64,000 nucleotides of DNA. It comes from Cliona cf. orientalis (lineage: Eukaryota; Porifera; Demospongiae; Clionaida; Clionaidae). The notes beneath the pieces were generated by a model, which worked only from the letters and a program-made list of their open reading frames with translations, did not search any database and was not told the DNA's origin. This document shows, one piece after another, positions 1-59,360 of this stretch. The stretch is from the NCBI GenBank assembly GCA_963930775.1, contig OZ005699.1, positions 4,981,501 to 5,045,500 of the forward strand. Direction: 5' to 3'. How positions within the stretch are numbered: position 1 is the stretch's first letter; every line of letters begins with the position of its first letter. A program made the translations under genes and the position numbers.

Positions 1-32
<32 letters not shown>
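1..32. repeat. (TG)n microsatellite
   Basis: Uninterrupted TG dinucleotide run at the window edge. It belongs to the tail of the dispersed repeat that follows, since the same repeat at 53.9 kb carries a CA/CT-rich run at the equivalent place. It may extend left of the window. Confidence 0.9.
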
Positions 33-413
33 TGTTATCACGCCAGCTGCTACATACCTGGTTAATACGATGCAAACAAGGTGTCATTAGGCTTTTTACG
101 CCATTTTCAAGGTCTGAATTGTGTGGATTTCGTTGAAAACGCTTCGTTCAAAAGTTCTGGCAACATTTGCTGACCACCATGGCCTTCTTCACTTCTTGAT
201 GAGCTCTCAATCGATGAAAGAGACAGCGATGGCTTCATTTCAAGATTAGTAGTGTGTAGCTCTAGCGATAGTTCTTAGAACTTGACTGACTCTTCACCGA
301 TCTCAGTAGGCTATCAACTATGCTTCTTAGCTTTACTTTGTATACTAGATCTACCGATCTGGCATGCACGTGGTACTATTACGTAATACCGTGCAATCCG
401 CATTCTTGTGGCT
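33..413 (-). repeat. Dispersed repeat B, left part, split by the TAGTCT transposon
   Basis: This stretch is the minus-strand counterpart of a repeat at about 53,400-53,950 (for example the GTATGTAGCAGCTRGCG and CCAAGAAGCRTAGTTGATAG words). The remainder of the same copy continues at 6766-6850, so one repeat copy was cut in two when the 423-6756 element inserted. The half-copies are joined by the 9-bp target duplication ACTCTACAA. I see no coding capacity in it. Confidence 0.75.
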
Positions 414-422
414 ACTCTACAA

Positions 423-500
423 TAGTCTTGCGTGCCAGCCCCTCCTACGCAAAGAGAGAGAGAAGGTCTGGTGAATGAACCTACTTCCGTTTGTCCCTTT
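423..500 (+). repeat. Left terminal inverted repeat of the DUF6589/RecQ transposon
   Basis: Matches 6420-6498 in reverse complement with only small differences in the GAGA run and a 12-bp insertion. The same architecture (TAGTCT, GC-rich stretch with GCCCC, GAGAGA, AAGGTCTGGT) recurs at 63,664 and in the MITEs at 39,681 and 52,747. Confidence 0.85.
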
Positions 501-704
501 GGAATGTATATTACGTCACTTATGTGACGTAGTACCTAACCACATTGCACTTTGCGATGATAATAATAAGTGCGTGTGCACATAAGATTGCTGTATTCAC
601 GCACGCGTAGGAGGGGCTGGCGTCTCTGCGGTCACGATCAGCTGACGAGTTTGAGATGGCTGCAGCTGGAAGATACTGTACGTCTTGCTTGTGGACAAGC
701 AGCG

Positions 705-3700
705 ATGGCCAATAATAGACGTTTGTTGAGTAGTGAGTCTTCAATCAGTGTGCATAAAGCGTGGAGAAATCTAGTTGATGAGAGGCTGAAAGAAAATGAA
801 ATGGAACTGGACATGGACTTGGTAGAGAAAATTTCAGCACCCACTTACATGTACAAAAATGCCATAGATCGTATGAAGCATTCTGTGAGAGGAAAAGTCA
901 GCTATTGGAAAGATTAAATCCAGCTACTGAGAAAATGCTTAGTGTTCATAGTTCATCTCACCAGTCAGGTCACACCATCCCATCGCGTAAAAGCTGTCCA
1001 TTCTCGCATCCTTAACGCAGAATCAAGTATCCAAGGGTGTCAATCAGTGAATCAGATATGGATTGTAGTTGCGCATCTCCAGGAGTTGAGGTATTAAAAT
1101 TGATTTCAGCGATTATATTTGCATACCATTTACTACATACATAATATGTAGTAGTACAGCTACTTACTATAGCCTCGTCCCTAGCCCCCTCCCTGCTACT
1201 TACCTACTAACCTCCTGGTCTCACATCAGCCACTCAATATCATAATAATATTATTATTATTGTTATGATGTCTTCCAAATATTTGTACAGGTCATTATAG
1301 GACATAAGTCAAAGCCAAAGGCAATAACACTCACACACCCACTAGAAAAGTACTTGCCAAACGCCTTGCTCGTGGGAGTGCGGTCTCTGTTGCTGTTGAG
1401 TGCGTATGAAATAAAAGAACACAGAAGCATGTCATCACAGCCCTTGCTCAGAACATCAGAAAGGAATTGAAAGAACTTTGTTCTCGCCGTGTCATGTCGC
1501 TTCAGAGAGCTCGTGATTCCAGCACACTCCAGGAGTTTAACTGGGATGCCATTGTCGATGAAGCAACAGAACATGCTCTGAACTTGGTTCAACTCCTAGC
1601 TGAATGTACAAAAAGAAAAAAAATCAGAGACGACACAAAATCAATAATTGGAATGTTGTTATCATTGTTGTGCAAGAATCGTAATCCCAAGATGACTCTA
1701 TTTCAAAGAATGATCTCTCTTGTCCTGTATGCTGGCCACTCTGCAAAAGGTTAGAACTTGTTAATTATCATTAACTACCAGGTGCTAACAGCAAAGCTCA
1801 GACGTGTTGATATTTAATAATTATAGTATACACTGTGTGATACCGTATAGCGGGAAATTTTCGTTGGTGCTAATTTTCGTATGATTGACCAAAATACCCT
1901 TAGAATAAATTTTCGTATTTTTTAATTTCGTATGCTTGCTGTGGGAGATTGTGCGCATGCGCAGCTGCTAGCGCTCGCACTATACGGTAACGCTAGCATC
2001 ACTGGCTTCCCCTTGATCGTAGTGGAGCTAATCAACGTCCACTGGGATCAGGAAGGTCACTCCATTTCGACGCCTTGGCAAAGAACGGATAAAGAGACAT
2101 TGTTCAGTGAGCTAGCCTTGCAATGATTTAGCATCCGCCGCTTGCGCTAGCGACCGCATGTGGCCGTGGTAGGCCTATTGGTCGAAGGTCACGCACGAAA
2201 GAAAAAAGGTTCGCACGTTCAAATTTTCGCAGTTTTTATTTTCATATAAGGGATGGAGCATACGAAATATACGAAAATTGGCACCATACGAAAATTTCCC
2301 GCTATACGGTAGTCATGCCTTGACATAGGTGTATACCAGGCTTCATAAGCTACACTTGTGTGCAAGTCATCGTGACACCCTAACAATACTGGATATTCTA
2401 GGAAAAGGATACGACACAAAAAATGATGAAATGGAGCAATGCACTCACTTTAAGGATCAATTCAAACAATGTATGATTATATGTTTTTTTGTACTTTTTT
2501 TTCTTGTATTACTGTTTATCTGCCACCAGATTCCAGAGATTGGTATGGATCAGATTTCTCGAGAATCAGTTTCCAGAGCATTTGGAGGTCAAGATGAAGC
2601 AGATCTATCATCACACAACTACAGTATGGAGCTCGAGTTTTCTTTTGATGAATTATAGACACAGCCAATAATGTCTCATGAATCCCAATGAAGTGTCCTA
2701 ACACCTCTGATATTCAATCAGAAATGTCTTCGCCTGTATCTTTTCAATCACCCAGTTATTCTCCAGTCTCTATTACAGATTCACTTGAATGTTCCCATTC
2801 TCAGAATGAGATGCCAGAACAAGAACAGACACCTAGCTGCTTTGAAGTCTCCATCACTGGATGGTAATAGTCAACAACAATCGAGTCAAGTGAAGGAGTC
2901 AAGATTGTCGGTGATAATGTAGACAAAAATGTCAAAACTAGATTCATGCGCATTGACCGACAGGGAAAATTATTGCATTATTTCCATTGTTATGCCACTC
3001 AAGATATATTTGATTTGTCTATGCCAGAAGATTATCCAGATGTACCAGCTAATCCAAAGCTTGAAGATCTATTACCATCCAAATCAGATATATCAGAAAT
3101 GAAATATTTTTTTCCATTCATGTAGCAAAAATCCTGTGCAAATACATGCCATTCTTTATCGAAGACTTTAGCGATGTGATCCCAGAACAACTTGAGCACC
3201 CTATATATGTCATCACAAGTGAGCCAAAAATCAGATGTGGTGAGCATTGTACTCCATAAAATCAACAGTTATAATATAGTTACTATGCAAAATAATGTTA
3301 AATTTAAAATTAATATTATAGGTCCCTCTAGGAGTGTATCTTAAGGACGAGAACAAACTGGATGAGATGGTAGATATCTTGCACGAACTGCATAGATATG
3401 TTCCAGCCAAGTCAGAGACTACAGAAGTACCTGTACCTGACAGCACTGAAGTTCAGCCATTGTCTGAGATTGCTTTCCATCGCCTATTATTTGGTGGCCA
3501 TCAGTTAACAGTGAAACGTGCCAGAGCTGGAGTAAGGATTAGAAACAACTCCACCAACAGTGCTGACCGACTAGAAGGATTGCTACCAGTTACCGAAGAC
3601 TGGAACGCTAAAGTTGTCTTCCTTGAGGTATGTATATAGAATTATTATCTGATCTTTTGTAAACAATCCCAAGAATTTTATTACATTAAACTTGGTTAAA

Positions 3701-4774
3701 CAGTCATAATTATAGTTTATGTTAAATCTTACCAACATAAACCACCACATACATAATATTATAGGTGATATGGAAATGATTATATAAGATGAGCTCAGCA
3801 TCAGATAGTGGAACTCCCTTCCAGCTACGAAACCTTCTCAACAGAAAGAATATTGGTATCTCACCTAAGAAAGATGTCAATTCTCGTGAGGACTTTTTCC
3901 ATCTCGTAGTTGGTGCTCATGTCTTAGTTGCTGCTATGGAATTTCTTGGAATGGACAGCCTAGACGACAATCCAAATGCAGAAATTTCAAAGAGGAGCGG
4001 AAAGAAATCCTACTGTCAGTTTGTGGTAGCATTGTCAAAGAATTCACAGACATTAGCACAATCAAACCCAAGCAGAATTTTAACACTGTTAATGAGCCAG
4101 AAAATTCCAACCACCATAAGAGTGAAGACAACGATTTGGTGTTATCTTATGCCAAGGAAGTCTTATCTTTTGGTCTTTTGTATAAAGAAGTTGTAGCTGC
4201 AGTCCGTGGAGGTGGCGGTGTGAGAGTACTGAGTTGGTGGCATTTCATGATGTTGATATTTGAAGAGTACTGGCCGTGTTAACTATAGCATCGAAGCCTT
4301 TATACTGCTAGCCCAGTACAAGTTCTTCTTACTCAGTTCAAGGGAAAAAACACATATAGTCGATTCATCAATATGCATGGCCTTGCAGGTAGGAATATAG
4401 GTCGTGATCTGTACATGGAACACCTGAATCGATTATTGAAAGATGTGATCAATGCACTGGGTGCAAACAAGACTCCAAAAGCAATTGAACGACTGGGAAA
4501 ATGCATAGCCCCACTAGGAGAGGTACTGGATACATACGACAGAGTTCATGGTGTTGAGTCCCAACTGTCTGACCATAACCCACCCAGCGTTGATAAGGAT
4601 TTGACCGCTCTTGTTAATGAACTATTTAAAGCCAATGCGTTCAATAGCAGTCCTGGACGTAAGCATTGTGCATATAGTACTTTCGTCAACAATCCAGTGT
4701 CATTATTAGACAAAGATGAGATCAATACATGGATGAAAATTCAGTGGACAAAATTAATAGCAGGACTACTTTAA
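705..4774 (+). pseudogene. DUF6589-family gene (putative transposase), decayed
   Basis: A spliced gene spread over about six exons: about 705-897, about 1450-1751, from 2329, about 2880-3235, about 3322-3627 and about 3765-4774. Family hallmarks in order are the CHMT-like block LCKNRNPKMTLFQRMISL with VLYAGHS, a GDNVDKNV...LHYFHCYA block, the FGGHQLTVKRARAG and DRLEGLLPVTEDW core (GDQLT in relatives), FQLRNLLNRKN, and a C-terminal MHGLAGRNIGRDLYMEHLNR followed by GANKTPKAIERLGKC. These blocks match the uncharacterised DUF6589 proteins I know from cnidarian and sponge genomes. Biochemistry is unknown; transposase is inferred from its place inside a TIR element. Breaks: a T-run frameshift near 3110, a stop at the start of the last exon (about 3776), and a frameshift near 3990. 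The H in GGHQLT replaces the usual D, a possible loss of a key acidic residue. Confidence 0.75.
1841..2311. mobile_element. TA-flanked MITE (TACCGTATAGCGGG ends) inside a DUF6589 intron
   Basis: TACCGTATAGCGGGAAATTT at 1841 is mirrored by AAATTTCCCGCTATACGGTA ending at 2311, and inner words (CATACGAAAAT) are also inverted. TA is the likely target duplication. It lies wholly between the donor at 1752 and the acceptor at 2328, so it need not affect the mRNA. Relatives: 50,378-51,739 and 54,250-54,473. Confidence 0.85.
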
Positions 4775-4781
4775 TAATATA

Positions 4782-6340
4782 TTATGCAAACAATACTTGA
4801 TTTTCACAATTTCCACAATCGCAGCTTATGCTACAGACATCACAACACATACATCCTTTGTTTTCAGGATCATGTATGTAAGTATCAAAGTCATAAAACA
4901 ACACTTTTCGGCGACACATATCACTACTTTCACAATAGTTCATCATCCCATCGCCAACAAATCTTTTCAGTCCTTTGTCATAAAGCATCACTGCATGAGA
5001 CACATTTCCATCTCTTCCTGCCCTTCCAGTGGCTTGAACATACTGCTCTATGTCTTCAGGTGGTCCCCAGTGAATGACATAGCGAATGTCGGGAGTATCT
5101 ACACCCATACCAAAAGCAATAGTAGATATCACAATATGCAAAAGGAGACCCAGGCTGCAGAAATGCTTTCAGCACACCATCCTTCACTGATGCATGTGTT
5201 GCACTAGTGAAATAGTCAAACAATTGAAATTCTGGCAGGTCGGGGGCACCAACTGGATCAACTCGCTCCTCCCTTAGAATAGAATGTAGAGCTGTGCACA
5301 CTTGGCCTGGGTTTGGCAGTAGACTATAGTCCTCGGCATTTTTGTCCTTTCTCTCCGTAGTGCTTGTATCATATGGTTGAAGGAGGTCTCAAGTGACTCA
5401 AAAGGAAGCACAGAGTAAATGATATTTCTTTTGTTGATGTTTTCACTAATCATAAGTGTGTTGTGCATTCCCAGCGTTTTGATTACACATCTCCTCAATG
5501 ATGCTGTAGCAGTAGCTGTCATTGCCAAGATGTTCACACTTGATGGTAAAATACTTCTGAGCTCTCCCAAGCGTGAAAATTCCCTCCTAAAATCACTTCC
5601 CCTGTGTACATAAAGGTGATAAAATTAATAATCAATAATTATCATGGGTAAGGGGACGAAAAAATAGCGTCACTATGACATGCCCCCTCGTGTCATGGCA
5701 AGAGTAAGTCCAGCTCAAGGCCAAAGGATAATCAAAATTCATGCTAAGGTTAGCATCACAGTCATGGCACACCCCCCGGCCCCCCCCCCCCTCTGTTAAA
5801 TGACATACGTATTTTAAAGTGTGATAATTATGCACAGTAACTAACCGTTTCTTGACACAGTGGGCCTCATCAATCACAAATGCAACCAATTTCTTAGTGT
5901 ACATTTGTAACTCTCAGATAGACACATTGTACGAAACTTGGGATTTCCAATTAACTGCTCTGGACTAATGAACACCAGCTGGCACTTCCCTTGTATCACA
6001 TCATCTTCATACATTCTTTGTCTGTATCCGAAGTAACATAAGCACTAGTAACACCCTTCTTTCTAAAAGTTTCTACTTGGTCCTTCATGAGCGCTGACAA
6101 CAGTGAAACGATGATAACAATAGACCCTTGGGACGAACGAAGGCTATCAAACACACCAGGCAGGCATCCATAGCACAAACTCTAGCCATAACCGGTAGGT
6201 AGTGCAGCAAAAACGTCAGAGCCAGATACAAAGTTTAGGATAACCTCTTTCTGTTTGTCCTTGATGGTAGTGTAGCCTAGTTCAGCACAAGCACGCTCGA
6301 TAGCTTGTTCGATAGTAGGAGTAGTAGCACTCGCATCCAT
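4782..6340 (-). pseudogene. RecQ-family DNA helicase gene of the transposon, decayed
   Basis: Reads leftward from ATG 6340. Visible SF2 motifs in order: an N-terminal lead (ELGYTTIKDKQ), motif I ALPTGYG whose Lys codon is now a stop (about 6181), motif Ia region VSLLSALMKDQVE, VFISPEQLIGNP, motif II DEAHCVKK, motif III AMTATATA, IVYCQTQ (motif IV), STIAFGMGVD (V), QATGRAGRDG (VI), then a Cys-rich RecQ zinc-binding end (CRRK...CMCCDVC...CDCGNC). A U2-type intron lies at about 5617-5848 (donor GTTAGT, acceptor ACACAG). Frameshifts lie near motif Ia/II and before motif V. The protein ends after the zinc module, so no RQC or HRDC domain is present. It converges on the DUF6589 gene. Confidence 0.85.
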
Positions 6341-6498
6341 AATCATACATGCCGCGTGAATTATACGCGTGCACGTACATTAACTGGTCACATGATATGA
6401 TTCTGCAATCTCATTGGTAGTTCCTATATCGTACCTAGGGACAAACGGAAGTACCTCTCTCTTTCTCTTTGCGTAGGAGGGGCTGGCACGCAAGACTA

Positions 6499-6745
6499 TT
6501 GTAGAGTAGCCACAAGAATGAGGATTGCACGGTATTACGTAATAGTACCACGTGCGTGCCAGATCGGTAGATCTAGTATACAAAGTAAAACCAAGAAGCA
6601 TAGTTGATAGCCTACTGAGATCGGTGAAGAGTCAGTCAAGTTCTAAGAACTATCGCTAGAGCTACACACTACAAATCTTGAAATGAAGCCATCGCTGTCT
6701 CTTTCATCAATTGAGAGCTCATCAAGAAGTGAAGAAGGCCATGGC
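6499..6745 (+). repeat. Inverted duplicate of the left flank inside the right end of the transposon
   Basis: Starting right after the inner terminus at 6498, the sequence TTGTAGAGTAGCC... is the reverse complement of the left flank 178-422, including the target duplication, at about 97% by eye. It ends at 6745, followed by an 11-bp second terminus (GTGCGAGACTA) and then the direct-repeat target site. This suggests an aberrant insertion or repair with template switching into the flank. Confidence 0.8.
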
Positions 6746-6756
6746 GTGCGAGACTA

Positions 6757-7262
6757 ACTCTACAACTACACTAAAGAGTACCACCGTTGCTTGTATATAC
6801 CTTGCAAATTTGCAACATGCAGACTAGCATTGCTATTGCGCCAAGGGTTTTGCACTATAGTGCCTCATGTATTAGGCTGGACTTCGAATAGTCTACGTAA
6901 GATCAATAACTAACATGCTAAACAGCCGTAAAACTAGCTTTATGCCACGTTTCAGCACAAATAAACAGCTAGCAATCGTAGCCATACCCACTTAATACGG
7001 CTGCACTCAACGACACATGGTGAAGTATCGTGGCTGCCCTTGCTCTGGATTGGTAACCGTGCTTGAATAAGCCTGAAATCAATAGTAGCCACTGCTACTA
7101 TTCAAATTATGATGCTAGCGTGGGTAACTTACCTGGGCGCTCTTTCGCGTATAAACGTGATACTGATACCTCGAATATCGGCCCATCCCCCAATCTTGGC
7201 CCAGTGTAAGGTGCACTGCCCATGGGCCCTCTTTCGCGAGGGTACGGTATATGTAGGTTCTA
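6757..7262. repeat. Dispersed repeats B (remainder) and C
   Basis: 6757-6850 carries the remainder of repeat B (CTTGCAAATTTGCAACATG, also at 53.4 kb inverted). 6850-7262 matches the repeat at 18,030-18,360 and 41,280-41,550, sharing GGGCCCTCTTTCGCGAGGG and TATCGGCCCATCCCC. No gene is seen here. Confidence 0.7.
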
Positions 7263-7282
7263 CTGCAATAAATGTAACTCAC

Positions 7283-7379
7283 CATATAATCAATATCATC
7301 CACTTCAAATCTTTTCCTGAGGTCATGAAACACTCTTGGGCAGTATTCCTTGAACTTAAAGTGACCAGGAAGATTTTCC
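7283..7379 (-). CDS. PIP4K2-like kinase, exon 3
   Basis: Encodes 32 residues including [17 protein letters not shown] and [11 protein letters not shown], close to the [17 protein letters not shown]...RERFGIDDQDY block of animal PIP4K2 kinases at the start of the catalytic domain. Acceptor GATAG and donor GTGAGT frame it exactly. Its one-base 5' overhang fits the two-base overhang of the exon at 19,269-19,366. The ATP-binding lobe and catalytic exons must lie left of the window, beyond the DUF6589/RecQ transposon. Confidence 0.9.
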
Positions 7380-7464
7380 CTATCATGATATATAACATAC
7401 TGTATACATGCACACAATGTACACACTGTATTACATGTATGGCAACAGAGAGTCCATATCATAG

Positions 7465-7660
7465 AGTTGGTAGACTCCATAAGTAGGGATGCCCAGATAC
7501 TCCATTATATAATACATTACAAATACCCAAATATCTTAAAACAGGTAACTTTATGAAATTTGTAAGTGTAAAAATCGGAATCTCCAGCAAATTACATGTA
7601 TCTATCTAATAAGACCAAGATCATTCATCAAAACAATAATATATGCCAGAACCAGATGTA
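7465..7660 (+). repeat. Dispersed repeat D2 (TAAGTAGGGATG family), fragment
   Basis: Contains AGAGTTGGTAGACTCCATAA, TACATTACAAATACCC and AAGACCAAGATCATTCATCA. The same ordered words occur at 20.0, 20.6, 25.0, 44.5 and 45.5 kb. Confidence 0.75.
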
Positions 7661-7699
7661 AAAAAAAAAAAAATAGCCATTTGTCAACATTCAATAAGC

Positions 7700-7832
7700 G
7701 CATGATAATCGAGAAAGCAAGCGTAGGGATGTATAGTGAATTTGACTATTCCTACAAATCTTGTTTGTGTACTTTTTTGACCCTGCCATCCCTACTTCGT
7801 CCATCAATTTTATTTTATACTTATATGGTAAC
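7700..7832 (+). repeat. Half copy of TIR element D (GCAAGCGTAGGGATGTA arm)
   Basis: Matches the right arm of the complete elements at 21.9, 24.3 and 42.9 kb: GCAAGCGTAGGGATGTATAG, then TTGTTTGTGTACTTTT and CCCTGCCATCCCTACTTC. The left arm is missing. Confidence 0.75.
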
Positions 7833-8584
7833 ACTTTGCTTGGCATGTCTACCTCTCTTAAGTTGACTATAAGCTAGAGGTCATGTATAACACGAGCACT
7901 CTTGTGGCTGGTCTGTACGTATATATGTACGTAACTGCTACTGTGCCAACTCTAATTTTCTGAATGACCAAAAATAATTTATAACATCGATATCATTGTT
8001 CAGATAGAAAATGAAAAAAATTTTAACTAATGGCTTGCTGGCATCTAAGAATGGAAAGGGAACATGGAATCACTGACCATTATTTTGTGATTGCTATCAG
8101 CATAGAAATATTATAATATTGCATCATTTCTATCCTGCAAGTGTTGGTGTAACAAGATCAAACATACTTGCTATGCTGTTTCTTCATCACTAGCACTTTC
8201 TCCATATTTTATCCCACTGATGCATGCTCAATAGTGTGAGATACAAAGAAGACATCCTAGCTATCCAAGGACTGAGTTTGCTATTTTAAATTAATGGCCT
8301 ATGGGATGAAGCTCTTATAAGAGTATGGTGTTTGGAATACCAGGCTTATGCTGGGCCTCTATGGTGCTCTAGCTACTGACTCAACGTTTGGAAAAGATGT
8401 GATAGCCACACTCTACTACAAACGAGGAAGCTACATGTAGCTAAGCTCTAACCGCTGTATTGAAACTGAATTCTGAGTTGTGCTTCTCAAGCTCCCGCTA
8501 TGCTATGTATGATTGAGGTGAACCTGAGAGAGCCCCACATAATGGTACTGCACTGCACGAATGAGACTGATATATTATTATACA
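7833..8584. other. Non-coding interval, nothing recognised
   Basis: AT-rich sequence with frequent stops in all frames. I see no family domain, no TIR pair and no tandem array. It lies in a PIP4K intron. Confidence 0.5.
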
Positions 8585-51900: not shown

Positions 51901-54900
51901 TTAAAGTTACGCCTCTTGAGTGTTAATATATTATAGGGAAGCCATGTATTTGCAGCCCTGGTGTACATTATTTAGGATTATGTGTGTTCTTTTTGAGAAA
52001 TGCTCCCTGCTAGCATTGTATGGCTCTCTACTCTGCAATCTGGGTGTACTATGGAAGTTTCCAGACATTTTTTTCTGCTTAGTGTGTCGGCTTGCTTGGA
52101 AAACAAAGCTAATTAGGCAAGTAATGGACATGCTCCAGGCAGTGTGCATAAATTAATGTTTTATTGCCTCCAGTTGGGCATGGCTTCGTATGTAGGCCAA
52201 TGCTTAATTGGCCATATCCATTGGGCCATGGAGCGTACAATTGGGCTGTGGCGATAGGTGGGTGTGTCCCGGATTATTGAACCCCACGGACACGTGCATG
52301 GGGCATGGCAGGAGGTCAAAGATGAGACCATGCCAGTTAGTGAGGGATTTCGTTATGTATAGAGATCCTACGAGAACTTGGAAGAATTTTGAGAAGTGAA
52401 AAAAAATAAGAGTATAAAGCAAGATTTGAATCCGCTACACTCTGTTTGGCACACAAGCCCCTCCCATCCATACTGCATATAATATTACCGTAGTATCCCG
52501 GGTAAGCGCCCATGGGTGCTTAAACATAATTAACTCACGATTTTGGCCCACATTGGCGATATTATTTCCATGTTTGTATAAGCTGTTACAATGACCCCAT
52601 GAAATGTGCTACGTGGGTGTTTGCCCGGGATACTACGGTATTATATATACATTATACACACATGTGATTGTGTCACAACCGTGTGCCAATAATCTAATTA
52701 GGATCTCTGTACGTAACGATTTCCATTTTTTGGGCCCACTTTTGACTAGTCTTGTGCCCAGCCCCTCCCTAGCTACACAAAAGGGAGAAAGGGTCATGGT
52801 GAAAAGGGTTGCACTACCGTGTCCCCACGTTGAAAATCGTACCTGGCCAATCAGATTGCAGTAGCGTAGTCACATGACTATTGGAATGTAAATATCTGTT
52901 GCATGCATGCGTACGTGCGCCCGACCGATAGCTATGCGCGCGCAAGGTATGGTTTATTTCTTATTTAATGCACACCAAAACAACAATTATATTGCATTCT
53001 GGACGGACACGGTAGTGCGACCTTTTTCACCAGACCCTTTCTCCCTTTTTGCATAGGAGGGGCTGGGCATGAGACTAACTTTTGACATAGACTTTCGCAG
53101 ATCGATTCCAGGATTAAAGGTCACGGAGAGTGAGTTTAATTTGCTAATGCAAGTGAGCCTGCAGCATAAACTTTGACCTTGCATGACTATAAAGCAATTT
53201 TAAACTGTTTAATTTTGGTACCTCTGATTGAGCAGCAAGAAAGGATTTAACTTGTGATGATCAGTCGGGCCACAAATATATGCAATCAGTGAGGCCTTTT
53301 GCCCGTGCAATTTGCATAAAGGTTATGTGAACTATCGGCTAAATACTTCTATAAATGAACACCATTGGTGCTAATTAAACCCTTGGCACTGTGAGATTTA
53401 TTGCAGTAGTGACTAGTCTACATGTTGCAAATTTGCAAGCTAGGCCTGCAGCACTATTGCTGTTAGCAGTGTTGTAGAGAGTAACTATAACCACAAGAAT
53501 GCATTACTGATTGCACAGTATTACGTAATATTACCACGTGCATGCCAGATCAGCAGATCTAGTACAAAGTAAAGCCAAGAAGCGTAGTTGATAGCCTACT
53601 GTGAGTCAGTCGAGTTACAAGAACTATCACTTGAGCTACACACTAATCTTCTTGAAATGAAGCGGCTACTGTATCTTTCATCGAGTGCTCAGAGAGTTCG
53701 ACAAGAAGCAAAGAAGGCCGTGGTGGTCAGAAAATGTCACCAGAACTTTTGAACAAAGCATTTTCAACAAAATCTACACAATGAATATATTGTATCTACA
53801 ACGAAAAGCCTATTGGCACCTCGTTTTCAACGTATAAAACAGGTATGTAGCAGCTAGGTATGTAGCAGCTAGCGCGGTAACAGACACACACACTCACTCA
53901 CTCACACACAGAACGACTACCGTAACCCTCGCGCATGCGCTGAGGGTTAATTAAGTCCAATTACCCCCCCCCCAAACTTAGGACCAAACCTTTAATTATT
54001 TTGGAAAAGCAGCCATTTCGTGATAAGTCTAGTCGAGGTCATACAGCCCCCCCCCCCCCCCCCCCCCCCCCCCCGTGTTGCACTGGCGTCAGCAAAGGGT
54101 TAAATACATGGATTTAATCTTTGACCCTGAAGTTCGTGAATAGTCTAATTGAAAGTGGGCGCGCAAAAAATTCACCTATAATGTTGTTGGTCCCAATGGT
54201 ATCTACTGTAAATCTTTATTTGCTATATTACATTTTATGCATAGCCTAATACCGTATAGCCGGAAATATTGGCAGGAATTAAATTTGGCGGTTGAGCCCC
54301 AAATTGCTATTACAAGAATATTGGCGGATTTAAATTTGGTGGTTCAGTATGGGATTGCCGTACATATATATGTGAGTAGGAAAAATGGCGGATTTTAATT
54401 TGGCGGTTGTAATATTTATAGACCACCAAACCGCCAAATTTAATTCCCTGCCAAATTTTCCGGCTATACGGTAGCATGGTTTTGAAATTGTGGCACAAAA
54501 AGCACTGTCATTGCTAAAAGCAAATACTGCTGGACTTTAAGGTACGTAGCATCAAAGTTTGTGGGCGTGAGGTGGGGGATTCAACACCTAAACCACATCA
54601 AAATCATAAGTGGTGTGCATGTTGTATGACCACATGCAAGTGCATATGTCTCAGGGTGTGGCTGCTATAGGAGGATTCCACGTAAATGTGTGAAGGAATT
54701 TTAATGATATGCAAATGATATTCAGCACCCTTTCAGAAAGTTCCGGCCAGGTTCTTGTCACGCCCATTGGTGGGAATCGAACGTATTGCGCCCTATGGGA
54801 ATAGCGTGCATTTTGGAGGCTGCATAGCTAGAGGTTTAGGGTAGGTACTGAAAAACGGCGCTAGCTCTAGGGTACCGTACACTATGTAGCTGAGGCACTT

Positions 54901-59249: not shown

Positions 59250-59360
59250 GTGATAGTCGTCGTACTTGTATGCATGTTGAGAAGGCTACGGATTGGTTAC
59301 CAGACTACTGCTAGTGTTTTGGTGATACCGACACAAGGCTGGCTGGCATGCAAGACTAGG

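Follow-up and report, generated by a model that had tools for sequence, protein, structure and literature searches.

A degraded TAGTCT-ended element of the sponge Cliona cf. orientalis pairs a DUF6589 gene, most likely encoding a DDE transposase, with a gene for a RecQ-type helicase

The window analysed here, 64,000 nucleotides of Cliona cf. orientalis DNA (contig OZ005699.1, positions 4,981,501 to 5,045,500), contains at positions 423–6756 a unit in which a gene of the DUF6589 family and a gene for a RecQ-type helicase lie together between terminal inverted repeats (TIRs). This raises the question of what kind of element it is and which of its two proteins would move it. The unit is quite probably a degraded cut-and-paste DNA transposon, with AcademH as its most likely lineage, the DUF6589 protein as transposase and RecQ as accessory. 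Other loci of the same genome were read for comparison and carry names of the form L0xx; L010, a better copy, was used as the reference. The ends and genes of the window element are as follows.

414–422, no strand: left copy of the 9-bp target-site duplication (TSD), ACTCTACAA, from sequence reading and a pair search
423–497, plus strand: left TIR (TAGTCTTGCGTGCC...), 91% to the 77-bp TIR of L010
684–4771, plus strand: DUF6589 gene in several exons, broken, the candidate transposase gene, from Pfam and tblastn with L010
4788–6316, minus strand: RecQ-type helicase gene, broken, with DEAH at 5860–5871 and Walker A at 6185–6193, from Pfam and tblastn with L010
6743–6756, minus strand: what is left (14 bp) of the original right TIR, reading TAGTCTCGCACGCC inward, 13 of 14 bases as in L010
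6757–6765, no strand: right copy of the 9-bp TSD, ACTCTACAA, from sequence reading and the pair search

Reading of bases 1–8000 revealed that the element opens with TAGTCT at 423 (left end TAGTCTTGCGTGCC) and closes with AGACTA at 6756 (right end GGCGTGCGAGACTA), with ACTCTACAA directly outside each end. The two copies of ACTCTACAA differ at none of their nine positions, and this is the sole TAGTCT...AGACTA pair in these 8000 bases with a duplication of 8–10 bp at no more than one mismatch. On the plus strand, Pfam matches to DUF6589 (PF20231) were found at 3322–3636 (E = 3.9e-7) and 4289–4771 (E = 5.6e-9), with a weaker one at 3890–4279 (E = 0.027); on the minus strand, 4785–5168 matched Helicase_C (E = 4.4e-11) and, at 24.5 bits where the cut-off is 25, RecQ_Zn_bind (E = 4.8e-5). 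This first Pfam scan gave no match for the N-terminal exons of the DUF6589 gene; tblastn with L010 placed DUF6589 exons across 684–4771 and RecQ exons across 6316–4788. Each gene begins near one terminus and the two meet tail to tail near 4780. An earlier note, made from the sequence alone, had described this layout, a TIR unit with a 9-bp duplication enclosing two genes that meet in the middle, and the comparison bears it out. The same note had taken the element for a single TIR unit, which stands as regards the paired TAGTCT ends with their duplication and fails at the right end, where an inverted copy of the left flank has rearranged the structure.

The copy L010 (contig C1) is 6023 bp long, its TIRs are identical at 77 of 77 positions and a perfect duplication, CGTTTTTAG, lies on either side. 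Its DUF6589 gene comprises six exons, separated by GT-AG introns, whose joined frame stays open for 1111 residues; residues 585–1046 match PF20231 (E = 4.5e-59). Its RecQ gene matches DEAD, Helicase_C and RecQ_Zn_bind and contains one stop and one frame break. Five elements retain both genes and two TAGTCT ends, and all are flanked by 9-bp duplications, as the earlier note had led one to expect: the duplication is perfect in the window, L010, L040 and L041, and has one mismatch in nine in L038. A sixth both-gene element, L039, lacks the left TIR and has a perfect duplication, ATGGCGACC, at 3279 and 7673.

Paired TIRs were found at 26 distinct places in the loci read, and the flanking 9 bp agree with at most two mismatches at 19 of these (at most one at 16) and with four to seven mismatches at the other seven; by our own arithmetic, about 0.3 of the 26 places would be expected at random to show two mismatches or fewer. 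In this count the ends were allowed a shift of one base, further one-ended places stand outside the 26, and the window was entered by its outer right end (0 mismatches; the inner end would give 4). L013, L018 and L022 were excluded as the same places as L006, L005 and L002, respectively, and L030:500-6731 and L041:7120-8490 as spurious pairings; L016 and L017, which share flanks, may represent one copied insertion. The duplicated targets vary in sequence among copies. Empty sites are also present: the insertion in L011 corresponds to uninterrupted sequence in L028 and L035, and that in L017 to uninterrupted sequence in L030 and L035, where each uninterrupted copy contains the 9-bp target once, with no more than two substitutions within it.

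Places with DUF6589 were collected by DNA searches with stretches of the DUF6589 gene, and were thus ascertained via DUF6589 and not via RecQ. A RecQ gene lies within a few kb at 15 of these 17 places, so the two genes, whose joint occurrence the earlier note had put forward, are not found mostly apart. RecQ was read beside DUF6589 at ten of them (the window, L010, L038–L041 and L044–L047; at L047, which has rearranged DUF6589 pieces, RecQ just reaches the edge of the stretch read and its body is placed by coordinates). At five more (C7:1970509, C13:7716202, C13:4275599, C13:1839827 and C4:11306639) match coordinates place the two genes converging within a few kb, and at C9:1242179 and C9:3875501 no RecQ stands beside DUF6589 among the matches listed. 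The RecQ fragment of the element has at least 151 matches in the 217-Mb genome, host helicases included, many of them with long open frames; by our own arithmetic, the probability that a RecQ match lies by chance less than 3 kb from a given DUF6589 place is far below 1%.

Both genes carry the sequence signature of coding constraint. When L010 is compared with L039 or L040, nonsynonymous difference (pN) is 0.12–0.21 and synonymous difference (pS) 0.78–0.91 for both genes, with pS near saturation. The comparison with the close copy L038, made over short pieces, gives a ratio of nonsynonymous to synonymous substitution (dN/dS) of 0.2–0.9, which is weaker and compatible with decay. Many TAGTCT elements among the loci read are short and contain neither DUF6589 nor RecQ, a circumstance that would suit the capture of two host genes by chance between such short elements. 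The same convergent pair recurs, however, in copies only 39–45% alike in protein, inside paired ends with perfect duplications; chance capture was rejected on this recurrence in diverged copies and is hardly credible. As judged from sequence, the family is established as having TAGTCT TIRs of about 77 bp, 9-bp duplications, empty sites, two convergent genes under constraint and short derivatives without genes.

These short elements, which have the same ends, would be moved in trans. In the 15 left-end loci L023–L037 DUF6589 is absent, and of these loci only L026 matches RecQ, weakly and over 61 residues. Short derivatives consisting of TIRs and the first ∼118 bases of the RecQ gene were observed at L041:8880-9364 and about 30 places in the genome; consequently, deletion derivatives of the L040 type occur widely.

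To assign a function to DUF6589, AlphaFold models of two distant members, P0015 (model 1) and P0056 (model 2), were compared with known structures. The best structural matches of both models are the P-element, Hermes and RAG transposases, returned by a second-look aligner only, with 6–12% identity in the alignments of model 1; Foldseek against the PDB gave no match at E = 0.001 or better. A profile search of the PDB with DUF6589 returned three unrelated rows (best E = 0.15) and no sequence match to these transposases. Among 35 relatives, Pfam identified DUF6589 in 34; its other matches were scattered and either weak or single, with no hAT or P element family among those shown. For the 1111-residue protein of L010, PF20231 was the sole Pfam match at E up to 0.05, again with no hAT or P element family, and three DUF6589 proteins had no match in NCBIfam. 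The candidate D, D and E residues are invariant in the DUF6589 alignment. On these models DDE transposase is the most likely identity of DUF6589: an RNase H-like core is predicted that holds a helical insertion, and the closest folds are those of P element, Hermes (hAT) and RAG1/Transib. This agrees with the RNase H fold and three conserved acidic residues that the earlier note had proposed to look for.

The preferred catalytic triad, D434, D606 and E856 of P0015, would correspond to D535, D702 and E994 of the L010 protein. The third acid was placed by counting back from the last residues aligned to Hermes, P element and RAG1, on the assumption of a gap-free stretch, with Hermes E572, P element E531 and RAG1 E962 as what we take to be the reference acids. 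The counts fall at 855–857 in model 1 and 523–524 in model 2 and thus point to E856 of P0015 and E523 of P0056. E813 of P0015 (NYxxE), our earlier first choice, is an alternative; both E813 and E856 are invariant. In the window the corresponding codons are the following.

2913–2915, plus strand: first candidate catalytic Asp codon (GDNVDK), retained, equivalent to D434 of P0015
3499–3501, plus strand: second candidate catalytic Asp codon, here His (GGHQLT for GGDQLT), equivalent to D606 of P0015
4293–4295, plus strand: alternative third Glu codon (NYSIEA), retained, equivalent to E813 of P0015
4418–4420, plus strand: preferred third catalytic codon, Glu (EHLNR), retained, equivalent to E856 of P0015

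P element, hAT (Hermes) and Transib/RAG1 thus resemble DUF6589 in the predicted RNase H-like core and in the large helical insertion that precedes the final acidic residue. These elements make duplications of 8, 8 and 5 bp, respectively, and to our knowledge carry no helicase. Membership of hAT or P element was rejected, given duplications of 9 rather than 8 bp and no match to their Pfam families among those shown. At the N terminus of P0015, Cys 4, 7, 56 and 59 are kept in 17/17, 16/17, 18/19 and 22/24 sequences, respectively, and in the aligned L010 protein three of these four positions are Cys. In the mechanism we propose, this N-terminal Cys4 module would bind the TIRs, the DUF6589 enzyme would cleave the element at both ends and attach these to the target strands at positions 9 bp apart, and the element's RecQ would unwind the transposon ends, the strand-transfer intermediates or products, or the donor gap. 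The pairing, the ends and the fold models agree with the earlier proposal of DUF6589 as recombinase and RecQ as accessory; for RecQ, it is conservation that makes a role as mobility accessory most likely.

We know of no RecQ helicase that cuts DNA, exact 9-bp duplications require staggered strand transfer, and DUF6589 combines a DDE-like fold with candidate D, D and E residues that are invariant. All three points tell against RecQ being itself the mobility enzyme, or a selfish passenger, with DUF6589 as a non-catalytic partner, for instance a DNA-binding protein. Models are the sole source of the fold evidence on DUF6589, and RecQ-type helicases are recurrent partners of other transposase families, for example KolobokH in the available text of PMC9587614; even so, this explanation is very improbable.

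The element was compared with described transposon lineages. In the available text of PMC10045372 and PMC10799480, AcademH has 9- or 10-bp duplications and a helicase, and a title cited in both places it in animals and fungi; Academ is counted among the DDD/E superfamilies in the text available of PMC9587614. The element resembles AcademH, from these descriptions alone, in its DEAD/Helicase_C-kind helicase, its 9-bp duplications and its animal host: the five both-gene elements have 0–1 mismatches in 9 bp, and L010 has DEAD, Helicase_C and RecQ_Zn_bind. Since this is the reported AcademH combination, the element is probably a new AcademH family, filed as such by helicase and duplication length alone. 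AcademX, the sister lineage, has a nuclease and 3- or 4-bp duplications according to PMC10045372, where the difference in length is suggested to relate to helicase versus nuclease; with 9 bp, also at the empty sites, and RecQ, the element does not belong to AcademX. KolobokH likewise combines a DDE transposase with RecQ in one element and, as far as the available text of PMC9587614 goes, is confined to fungi, with RecQ downstream of the transposase. The window element differs in having its RecQ gene on the opposite strand. Kolobok duplicates TTAA, whereas the duplications here are of 9 bp and varied sequence, and KolobokH was rejected.

The earlier note knew of no described superfamily with this pair and foresaw that one might exist under another name; the kind has probably been described already, as AcademH. 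Literature searches on DUF6589 and PF20231 returned no paper on the family and no link to a transposase, with PF20231 appearing only in an unrelated paper. Moreover, the AcademH placement draws on helicase and duplication length. Both points leave room for DUF6589 and RecQ to form a superfamily of their own that merely shares helicase and 9-bp duplications with AcademH. This is unlikely, because the text of PMC10045372 available reports for AcademH this pairing of a helicase and duplications of 9 or 10 bp, and animals and fungi are given as AcademH hosts. A bolder form, in which the separate superfamily's RecQ takes a direct part in transposition and contributes to the 9-bp stagger, and the elements may account for much of the RecQ-like expansion in the genome, appears quite unlikely.

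Provided that the AcademH name is correct, this class of element is already known, and the additions are the DUF6589 link and the fold assignment. DUF6589, still annotated as of unknown function, would gain a likely identity as the transposase of RecQ-bearing elements, and the P/hAT/RAG-like fold points to residues worth mutating. The near-constant pairing offers a testable case of a eukaryotic DDE transposase with its own helicase, and a possible reason for the frequent DUF6589 and RecQ-like copies in some sponge genomes. Named database relatives of the window's DUF6589 protein come from the sponges Ephydatia, Amphimedon and Dysidea; more remote ones include the bivalves Pinctada and Argopecten.

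In the window copy, DUF6589 and RecQ are both pseudogenes. Its RecQ gene has a stop directly after Walker A, at the expected ATP-binding Lys, and three internal stops in the C-terminal match (genome search). The broken frames, the replacement of the second candidate catalytic Asp by His and that of the Walker A Lys by a stop make this copy inactive.

The right end of the window copy is composite, and involves three further features.

177–463, no strand: left arm (287 nt) of an inverted repeat, made up of left flank and the element's first bases
6453–6498, minus strand: inner TIR end on the right, duplicating the left end, with an inverted TSD copy (TTGTAGAGT) after it, from comparison with L010
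6458–6744, no strand: right arm of the inverted repeat, left flank and left end inverted, 98% matched

From inside to outside, the TIR end at 6498 is followed by the inverted left flank with TSD, the 14-bp TIR remnant and the outer TSD. The left flank (61–430) is repeat DNA, with copies in L042, L039, L043, L008 and at 53509–53782 of the window. In L042 and L039 this repeat continues across the position equivalent to 177, so 177 is a breakpoint and not the end of the repeat; two independent repeat insertions were rejected as the source of the arms on the same ground. Template switching between the element's ends during repair probably produced the present right end, and an assembly fault may be an alternative.

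The minus strand of the window has another two TAGTCT-type ends, at 53025–53081 and near 59358, which belong to this family or a related one; no partner ends were found for them. GCGTAGGAGGGGCTGGC occurs three times in the window (434–450, 605–621 and 6471–6487); the subterminal inverted copy at 605–621 is a possible extra binding site for the transposase. Within the DUF6589 gene, 1841–2311 is bounded by 24-nt perfect inverted repeats (TACCGTATAGCGGGAAATTTTCGT) 423 nt apart and is a probable small mobile element. The RecQ intron of L010 contains, at 1742–2013, a 272-bp repeat with inverted ends that is found at 37 further places at 85–96%. Finally, L011 contains a Transposase_21 (tnp2) gene at 4645–8003 (E = 5.5e-18), inside an 8.2-kb TAGTCT unit with a perfect duplication, and this gene is probably a nested element of another family.
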